The translations under genes and the position numbers were made by a program. Below are positions 16,043 to 53,204 of a DNA stretch of 64,000 nt, piece by piece (position 1 is the stretch's first letter; each line of letters starts with the position of its first letter). Source of the stretch: Candidatus Saccharimonadota bacterium (GTDB taxonomy: Bacteria; Patescibacteriota; Saccharimonadia; Saccharimonadales; UBA4665); assembly GCA_028289125.1 (NCBI GenBank), contig JAQGGZ010000005.1, positions 62,001-126,000 on the forward strand, given 5' to 3'. The notes under the pieces are model-generated. The model was not told the DNA's origin. It was given only the letters and a program-made list of their open reading frames with translations, and made no database searches.

Positions 16043-16088
16043 AGATAAGCTTTTCGATACAATCATAGATTGCACGAAAAGCTTATCT
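16043..16088 (-). terminator. Long hairpin ending the tRNA-Asn unit
   Basis: Perfect 14-bp stem AGATAAGCTTTTCG (16043-16056) / CGAAAAGCTTATCT (16075-16088). The 18-nt loop contains a further CAATC-ATA-GATTG helix. It directly follows the second copy of the tRNA-Asn 3' end, where a displaced original terminator would be expected. Confidence 0.6.
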
Positions 16089-16259
16089 TGGCTCGGGCGA
16101 CCGGATTATAGCTTCACGCCGGATACCTTTTAAATTTTTACGGATTAGCGATTCGGGCTTGGCATAGGTTTTGGTTAATCACCAAAACATCGAACGTTCG
16201 GTATAATCCGTTCACTCGAGCCAAACAAAAACACCTTCGGCGAGGAAGGTGTTTTTGTT
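16089..16259 (-). repeat. 171-bp structured tRNA-tail unit, copy A (tRNA-Asn)
   Basis: Read on the minus strand after the tRNA: a 15-bp/8-nt-loop hairpin, an inverted copy of the tRNA 3' end (19 of 22 positions pair with the final copy, plus one wobble), a conserved middle with TTCGATGTTTTG...CAAAACCTATGCC, a conserved 20-mer CCGGCGTGAAGCTATAATCC (16122-16103), and a direct copy of the tRNA-Asn 3' end including CCA (16107-16089, 18 of 19 bases identical to 16278-16260). The spacing between the two tRNA ends is 171 bp. The same unit follows tRNA-Gln at 53035-53204. No open frame is present. It is either a tiny mobile element using tRNA 3' ends or a structured RNA; see findings. Confidence 0.75.
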
Positions 16260-16260
16260 T
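16223..16260 (-). terminator. Terminator of tRNA-Asn (inside the repeat unit)
   Basis: 15-bp stem AAACAAAAACACCTT / AAGGTGTTTTTGTTT with an 8-nt loop, starting at the tRNA CCA end. The pairing continues into the tRNA end itself because the inverted copy CGAGCC lies on the far side. Confidence 0.8.
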
Positions 16261-16334
16261 GGCTCGGGCGACTGGATTCGAACCAGTGACATTTCGGTTA
16301 ACAGCCGAACGCTCTACCGCTGAGCTACGCCCGA
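16260..16334 (-). tRNA. tRNA-Asn (anticodon GTT)
   Basis: 75 nt with encoded CCA. Acceptor stem TCGGGCG/CGCCCGA, D-arm GCTCAGCGGTAGAGC, anticodon arm TTCGGCTGTTAACCGAA with GTT in the loop, T-arm CTGGTTCGAATCCAG, discriminator G. All stems pair fully, so it should be functional. Confidence 0.95.
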
Positions 16335-52962: not shown

Positions 52963-53037
52963 TAGGGCGTCGCCAAGTGGTAAGGCATCAGTTTTTGGTA
53001 CTGACATTCGGGGGTTCGAATCCCTCCGCCCTAGCCA
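52963..53037 (+). tRNA. tRNA-Gln (anticodon TTG)
   Basis: 75 nt with CCA. Acceptor stem TAGGGCG/CGCCCTA, D-arm with AAGTGGTAAGGC, anticodon arm TCAGT-TTTTGGT-ACTGA (TTG), T-arm GGGGGTTCGAATCCCTC (closing pair imperfect), discriminator G. A TATACT box at 52945-52950 serves as -10. Confidence 0.93.
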
Positions 53038-53204
53038 AATTAAAAAGACCTGCTTCAGTAGGTCTTTTTAATTTGCTTGAACGGGATTACTAGAACGGGT
53101 TCGATGTTTTGCCGTCGTGGCAAAACCTATGCCGAACCCGATTCCGCCTACCTGTTCGAATAATATGGCGGAACCGGCGTGAAGCTATAATCCCTCCGCC
53201 CTAG
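53035..53204 (+). repeat. 170-bp structured tRNA-tail unit, copy B (tRNA-Gln)
   Basis: Same order as copy A: 15-bp hairpin with an 8-nt loop, a degenerate inverted tRNA end (GGGATTA at 53083-53089), TTCGATGTTTTG (53100-53111), CAAAACCTATGCC (53121-53133), the identical 20-mer CCGGCGTGAAGCTATAATCC (53174-53193) and a copy of the tRNA-Gln 3' end AATCCCTCCGCCCTAG (53189-53204, identical to 53019-53034). Copy-to-copy distance is 170 bp. A terminator follows at once. No coding frame. Confidence 0.78.
53037..53074 (+). terminator. Terminator of tRNA-Gln (inside the repeat unit)
   Basis: 15-bp stem AAATTAAAAAGACCT / AGGTCTTTTTAATTT, 8-nt loop: same geometry as the tRNA-Asn terminator but with different sequence. 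Confidence 0.88.

Follow-up and report, generated by a model that had tools for sequence, protein, structure and literature searches.

A folded ~170-bp unit that copies the 3′ end of its own tRNA, found behind two tRNA genes of a Candidatus Saccharimonadota bacterium, is one variant of a class-wide tRNA-linked system

The ssrA islands of Dehalococcoides, located at tRNA/tmRNA 3′ ends (PMC3146451), leave the RNA gene intact and accrete in tandem behind it. The repetitive hairpin-forming, or double hairpin, elements of mitochondria (PMC2800124) are short, dispersed and hairpin-forming, with a patchy, mostly intergenic distribution and no known carrier, and the REP/REPIN palindromes treated together with RAYTs (PMC3733652) are small, extragenic, dispersed and possibly transcribed. 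These traits recur in the folded units described here, two of which lie behind tRNA-Gln and tRNA-Asn in a 64-kb stretch of DNA (the window) from a Candidatus Saccharimonadota bacterium, whose genome (G000) comprises 874 kb in 11 contigs and whose publicly named relatives belong to Candidatus Saccharibacteria. Behind other tRNAs, the frame that surrounds the folded core of the ~170-bp unit holds a different module, R3, so that this unit represents one version of a wider system that spans the class. A literature search, whose scope left preprints and most subscription papers outside, found no description of these units.

A preliminary description, made from the sequence of the window, held that the same unit follows both tRNAs, and this is borne out: all of its parts are present by direct reading at the coordinates given in Table 1, and both tRNAs were checked with ARAGORN. 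As it had stated, a 15-bp hairpin with an 8-nt loop follows each tRNA, the two units share an identical 20-mer, each unit copies the 3′ end of its own tRNA, and a second terminator-like inverted repeat stands behind each unit (that of the Gln unit was not listed by the hairpin scan, because of its 9-bp stem and 12-nt loop). The conserved hairpins of the two units (GTTTTGCC/GGCAAAAC and GTTTTGGT/ACCAAAAC) both have 5-nt loops, and the inner helices covary throughout the family. In the Asn unit the inverted tRNA part pairs with the direct copy, 11.9 kcal better with its own flank than with a swapped one. The inverted tRNA remnant is weak in the Gln copy, and clearer in the Asn, Ser and G040 Leu copies.

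The 18-mer GGCGTGAAGCTATAATCC has exactly two copies in the G000 genome. A covariance model made from four copies, two of which are the Gln and Asn copies themselves, matches these two units with E=1e-28 and 8e-24, and has matches in 23 of 99 relatives. The further copies beside other tRNAs, for which the preliminary description had proposed a search, were found in relatives, behind many different tRNAs. In the public genome collection the 18-mer occurs in two Saccharibacteria and two unrelated genomes; one of the Saccharibacteria matches lies behind tRNA-Ser with matching architecture (L006). The exact matches in Rhodoferax and Acidobacteriaceae (L005, L007) do not show the structure and are put down to chance, and a near-match at G000:C8:79686 (L003/L043), which scores 14.6 bits with R1 and is absent among the R2 matches, is either chance or too decayed to be judged.

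The refined model, R2, was built from 42 copies and describes a core of ~90 nt, consisting of GATAAT, hairpin B, ATGC, an internal loop, hairpin C and the conserved end GGCGTGAAGCTATA. Hairpin B has a GNNNA loop, often with tandem G.A pairs, and the internal loop carries GAA on both sides. Base pairs occupy 84% of cells, and the covariation score is 0.503, against 0.171 when shuffled and 0.05-0.10 with slid partners (cells in these pair counts, as in those for R3 below, are not independent). With covariation beyond both the shuffled and the slid controls, R2, like R3 below, is a good candidate for a new conserved structured RNA. In Rfam scans only tRNA passed the gathering threshold, and even permissive settings produced nothing credible for the core. 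The non-canonical pairs (G.U 23; A.C 33, 27 of them in one conserved column; G.A 75; T.C 13) fit an RNA read on the tRNA strand, single-stranded DNA being also possible. R2 copies avoid open reading frames, with 7 of 32 located in one, compared with 62% of random positions. Within the family, 19 of 93 genomes have matches, and phylum-wide the count is 2 of 380, both in the same order; the large genome scans used stricter filters, so that their low counts are lower bounds. The most copies in one genome is 14 (G040), followed by 7, 5, 5 and 4.

Fifty-nine R2 copies were placed with respect to tRNAs. Twenty-two follow a same-strand tRNA at 58-137 nt, six are upstream of a tRNA, one is near a tRNA on the opposite strand, and for 30 no tRNA was detectable within 300 nt. 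For 21 of the 22 tRNA-linked copies, the 3′ end of the neighbouring tRNA continues the right end of the core (5.6% with swapped tRNAs), and an antisense copy of its T-arm is recognizable in nine (4% swapped). In these copies the core lies inside the T-loop of a partial tRNA copy (GGTTCGA-core-ATCC). Other positions are also used. In L061, beside an intact tRNA-Met, the core interrupts a partial copy of that tRNA at the anticodon loop (CTCA-core-TAAC), and in G040 it occurs inside a repeat palindrome (CTGA-core-GCGTAAGCGAAG; L074) and inside the R3 module, between CGA and GCA of a CGAGCA site that is uninterrupted in the R3 unit behind tRNA-Met of G000. The flanks around the core, be they T-loop, anticodon loop or hairpin, are intact.

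Several other arrangements were seen at these loci. The R2 cores of L073-L076 and L084 (G040) are in or beside a repeat palindrome of the GTCATTCTGA..GAAGAATCTGAGCC type, the stem of which has tandem G.A mismatches. Units without a detectable tRNA still begin with an acceptor-like stub of 4-8 nt, mostly ending in CCA, directly before the terminator, and close with a long tRNA 3′ copy (L046, L047, L050, L057, L079, L081, L082, L101, L185, L197, L200, L203 and L209); several stubs are preceded by a GTTCCAA-like sequence. The mirror case is found upstream of tRNAs (L195, L078, L089, L061), where a partial 5′ copy of the tRNA, with an R3 hairpin or R2 core inserted within its D-arm or anticodon loop, is followed by the intact tRNA. 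Finally, a leader motif, AAGCTTTTGCC-n-GGCAAAACGAG, precedes a same-strand tRNA at all five sites found (L048 at 517 and 1327, L059 at 1478, L078 at 159 and L089 at 711), in a set of loci that is enriched for tRNAs.

Behind the Gly, Met, Pro and Val tRNAs of G000 there are copies of the respective tRNA that lack the R2 core, and most of these carry R3 (GAGC-helix-GCGCAG-hairpin-CGAGCA-helix-GGCGGAG). The common frame consists of the tRNA, the terminator T1, an antisense T-arm, a hairpin and the 5′ half of a sense T-arm, then the module (R3 or R2), and then the 3′ half of the sense T-arm with the acceptor end. R3 covaries as well, with a score of 0.375 versus 0.153 when shuffled and 0.05-0.14 with slid partners. 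Its non-canonical pairs are dominated by A.C (117, with 57 in one invariant column) versus G.T (17), a pattern that does not support a plus-strand RNA in the way that the R2 pairs do. R3 matches were found in 21 of 40 relatives; a phylum-wide scan of 240 genomes gave five, every one a member of the same class. Fifty-five of the 63 scored R3 copies follow a same-strand tRNA at a distance of 66-240 nt (median 83 nt), some of these loci having been chosen for holding tRNAs or the hairpin; in the unselected whole-genome matches of G000, nine of ten adjoin a same-strand tRNA. Of the 55 tRNA-linked copies, 40 carry their own tRNA's 3′ end (2.1% swapped) and 23 its antisense T-arm (10% swapped). Altogether about 16 kinds of tRNA are involved. 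G000 also contains tRNA-copying units with modules that match neither R2 nor R3, at L017 after tRNA-Gly(gcc) and at L009 after tRNA-Lys.

Table 1. Parts of the tRNA-Gln and tRNA-Asn units, with positions in the 64-kb window.
Feature	Coordinates	Strand	Evidence
tRNA-Gln (ttg), intact host gene	52963..53037	+	ARAGORN; Rfam RF00005, 60.6 bits
Terminator T1 behind tRNA-Gln, 15-bp stem, 8-nt loop	53037..53074	+	direct reading; folds to a long hairpin
Inverted tRNA-Gln 3′ part, remnant (TGCTTGAACGGGATTACTAGAAC vs antisense TGGCTAGGGCGGAGGGATTCGAAC)	53075..53096	+	direct reading
Sense T-arm 5′ half, GGGTTCGA	53097..53104	+	direct reading; other T-loop copies share the frame
R2 core match with hairpins B and C (strict insert ~53105-53189)	53099..53191	+	R2 match G000:C11:115099-115191, 77.3 bits
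Hairpin B, GTTTTGCC-GTCGT-GGCAAAAC	53106..53126	+	helix covaries over 42 copies
Hairpin C upper stem, TTCCGCC/GGCGGAA	53142..53173	+	helix covaries over 42 copies
20-mer CCGGCGTGAAGCTATAATCC, identical in Asn unit; conserved end GGCGTGAAGCTATA	53174..53193	+	direct reading; genome search
Direct tRNA-Gln 3′-end copy starting in T-loop (AATCCCTCCGCCCTAG), 16 nt exact	53189..53204	+	direct reading; own-vs-swapped test
Second terminator-like hairpin T2 (AAAAAGCAC...GTGCTTTTT), 9-bp stem, 12-nt loop	53211..53240	+	direct reading
tRNA-Asn (gtt), intact host gene	16260..16334	-	ARAGORN; Rfam, 73.8 bits
Terminator T1 behind tRNA-Asn, 15-bp stem, 8-nt loop	16223..16260	-	direct reading
Inverted tRNA-Asn 3′ part (GGCTCGAGTGAACGGATTATACCG)	16199..16222	-	direct reading; pairs with direct copy
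R2 core match behind tRNA-Asn (strict insert ~16107-16189)	16105..16195	-	R2 match G000:C11:78105-78195, 77.1 bits
20-mer CCGGCGTGAAGCTATAATCC, common to both units	16103..16122	-	direct reading; genome search
Direct tRNA-Asn 3′-end copy (AATCCGGTCGCCCGAGCCAA), 20 nt, one change	16088..16107	-	direct reading; own-vs-swapped test
Second terminator-like hairpin T2 behind Asn unit	16043..16088	-	direct reading

These data redraw the limits of the unit. The conserved core, of ~90 nt, begins and ends in the T-loop, which leaves the terminator and the inverted tRNA piece outside it. That the element brings a replacement end is one of several readings of the duplication. Both of the alternatives offered in the preliminary description, a tiny element inserting at tRNA 3′ ends and a conserved tRNA-linked RNA, are supported by the further own-end copies, the covariation and the loci with and without units, although the core is often without a tRNA. 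The outer helix (GGGATTA/TAATCCC versus CGGATTA/TAATCCG) is present in the sequence and strong in L040 and L047, but it is not general: over 59 copies the own flanks pair no better than swapped ones (own lower in 30 of 59, p=0.37), and the outer closing helix was rejected as a defining feature.

The proposed comparison of tRNA loci with and without the unit gave all three states (no unit, R3 alone, or R3 and R2) across the species of one genus at an orthologous tRNA-Ala locus. G502 has the tRNA and terminator only, G501, G054, G001 and G500 have an R3 unit in which the helix sequences differ and the architecture is constant, and in G040 two R2-bearing units stand in tandem. Therefore inheritance at a fixed site accounts for part of the R3 units, and R2 cores are gained and lost. 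In the tandem units of G040 that lie behind one tRNA (L180, L186, L187), each unit ends in the 3′ end of the local tRNA.

We favor, at about an even chance, the explanation that the units are small non-coding structured mobile elements of Saccharibacteria-type bacteria, which target the T-loops of tRNA genes and, less often, other hairpins. This is supported by the own-tRNA copies relative to swapped controls, the covariation of R2 and R3, the intact flanks, the presence and absence of units at tRNA-Ala, the amplification in G040, the position of the G000 R3 matches beside tRNAs, and the avoidance of open reading frames by R2. In many copies the tRNA 3′ part appears in the order sense, antisense, sense, with an antisense T-arm copy behind the terminator; the host tRNA gene itself is intact, and the T-arm copy around the module matches the neighbouring tRNA. 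Such an order might arise if, on insertion, the tRNA 3′ part were copied by fold-back with the target as template, synthesis snapping back first at the terminator hairpin T1 and again at the T-arm hairpin. Two fold-back steps at strong hairpins would yield the sense-antisense-sense order, with the module placed in the T-loop of the third copy, and templating by the target may be why each copy holds the sequence of its own tRNA despite the common module. The folded form, as RNA or single-stranded DNA, would presumably be recognized by the moving machinery or by a cell function.

Several points weigh against mobility. No carrier gene was found: Y1 transposase and reverse transcriptase, the two candidate families tested, are both absent from the 14-copy G040; the incompleteness of metagenome-assembled genomes limits such absences, but G040 is ~98% complete. 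In addition, R3 units in four species have stayed at their sites while acquiring compensatory changes, which also fits an inherited function; movement was not observed between near-identical strains; the putative fold-back step is read solely from the order of the sequences; and more than half of the copies have a weak antisense part or have lost it. More tentatively, though we consider it possible, there may be a class-wide Saccharibacteria system that puts interchangeable folded modules in the T-loop of a templated tRNA 3′ copy, by a mechanism unlike known transposons, integrases and retroelements, whereby host tRNAs would acquire their own sense-antisense-sense unit.

The next most likely reading after a mobile element, itself somewhat doubtful, is that the units are functional RNAs passed on by descent. 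They would be structured RNAs linked to tRNAs and might work as a switch, with the antisense T-arm pairing either to the tRNA 3′ part or to the sense copy, or as a tRNA-maturation trailer. The fixed distance and strand behind the tRNA and the covarying helices would be natural for such an RNA, as would the occurrence of R3 through the class and the tRNA-Ala architecture kept in four species despite changed helix sequences. This reading accounts poorly for the patchy presence, the 14 copies in one genome, the 30 of 59 R2 copies without a tRNA, and an outer closing helix that is not maintained across copies. A strong terminator also stands between tRNA and unit, and a promoter scan there recognized none, though as evidence this is weak and the scan uninformative.

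We consider it unlikely that the units derive from site-specific integrative elements, as remnants or minimal versions of them (mini-islands or attachment-site scars). In that case a recombinase would cross over in the T-loop and leave the tRNA 3′ end directly repeated, with tandem pile-up of elements. A far-boundary repeat of just this kind is present in the 21 of 22 tRNA-linked R2 copies mentioned above, and the tandem units behave as expected in each finishing in the local tRNA end. Nevertheless, a fixed attachment site cannot explain units in which one module serves ~16 kinds of tRNA, because the module is common to all of them and yet the copies on both its sides agree with the local tRNA at each site. 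Antisense copies are also not predicted by an attachment-site model, and random decay would not be expected to give shared modules. The ~170-bp units contain no integrase or other genes (larger gene-bearing versions were not systematically sought), and there was no match in the phage, plasmid and viral collections. The two copies within one 64-kb window might suggest that a tRNA locus was simply duplicated as a segment, which the preliminary description had named as a contrary outcome, or that chance was at work. Both are refuted by the differing tRNAs, each copied by its own unit, by the dozens of copies in many genomes, and by the swapped-tRNA and shuffling controls.

Three further identities were considered and set aside. 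The absence of PF01797 (Y1 transposase) from G040, G000 and G028 speaks against RAYT/IS200-type mobilization, and that of PF00078 (reverse transcriptase) from the same three genomes and from 10 of 12 other R2-bearing family genomes tested speaks against a retroelement origin (group II intron, retron or diversity-generating retroelement). A putative omega-RNA, in which a scaffold would precede a 16-20 nt guide identical to the tRNA end, would fit badly with the retained perfect self-target.

If our favored explanation is correct, a tiny non-coding element lives at tRNA genes without breaking them, which would be a new way of doing so, in a host-dependent lineage whose reduced genomes have little space to spare. 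The work also provides two covarying motifs without an Rfam entry and a set ready for testing, formed by sister species in which a given tRNA has or lacks units; if the units are transcribed, they would represent a new kind of tRNA-linked RNA.

Compared with the systems described at the outset, the units differ in each case. The ssrA islands are kilobases in size, carry an integrase and use one gene (PMC3146451), whereas the units are ~170 bp and gene-free, are found at ~16 kinds of tRNA, and have antisense T-arm copies and a common folded module. With REP/REPIN sequences (PMC3733652) there is a direct point of contact, in that one such palindrome holds R2 in G040, but the units have larger multi-hairpin modules and tRNA copies, and the copy-rich genome lacks a Y1 transposase; the R3 hairpin is ~22-40 nt, beside the 20-40 bp of a REP palindrome, and a GTAG or CGTC tag was not seen by eye, with no systematic test. 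The inverted insertions that arise at yeast DNA breaks by fold-back templating (PMC11724301) likewise make short inverted copies of local sequence, but are random repair events with no conserved module and no tRNA targeting. The mitochondrial double hairpin elements (PMC2800124) are alike in being dispersed and patchy with intact flanking sites, a likeness of form rather than of demonstrated descent. In contrast to them, the units are bacterial, have covarying modules that many genera share, are linked to tRNAs at a fixed distance and strand, and carry copies of their own tRNA.
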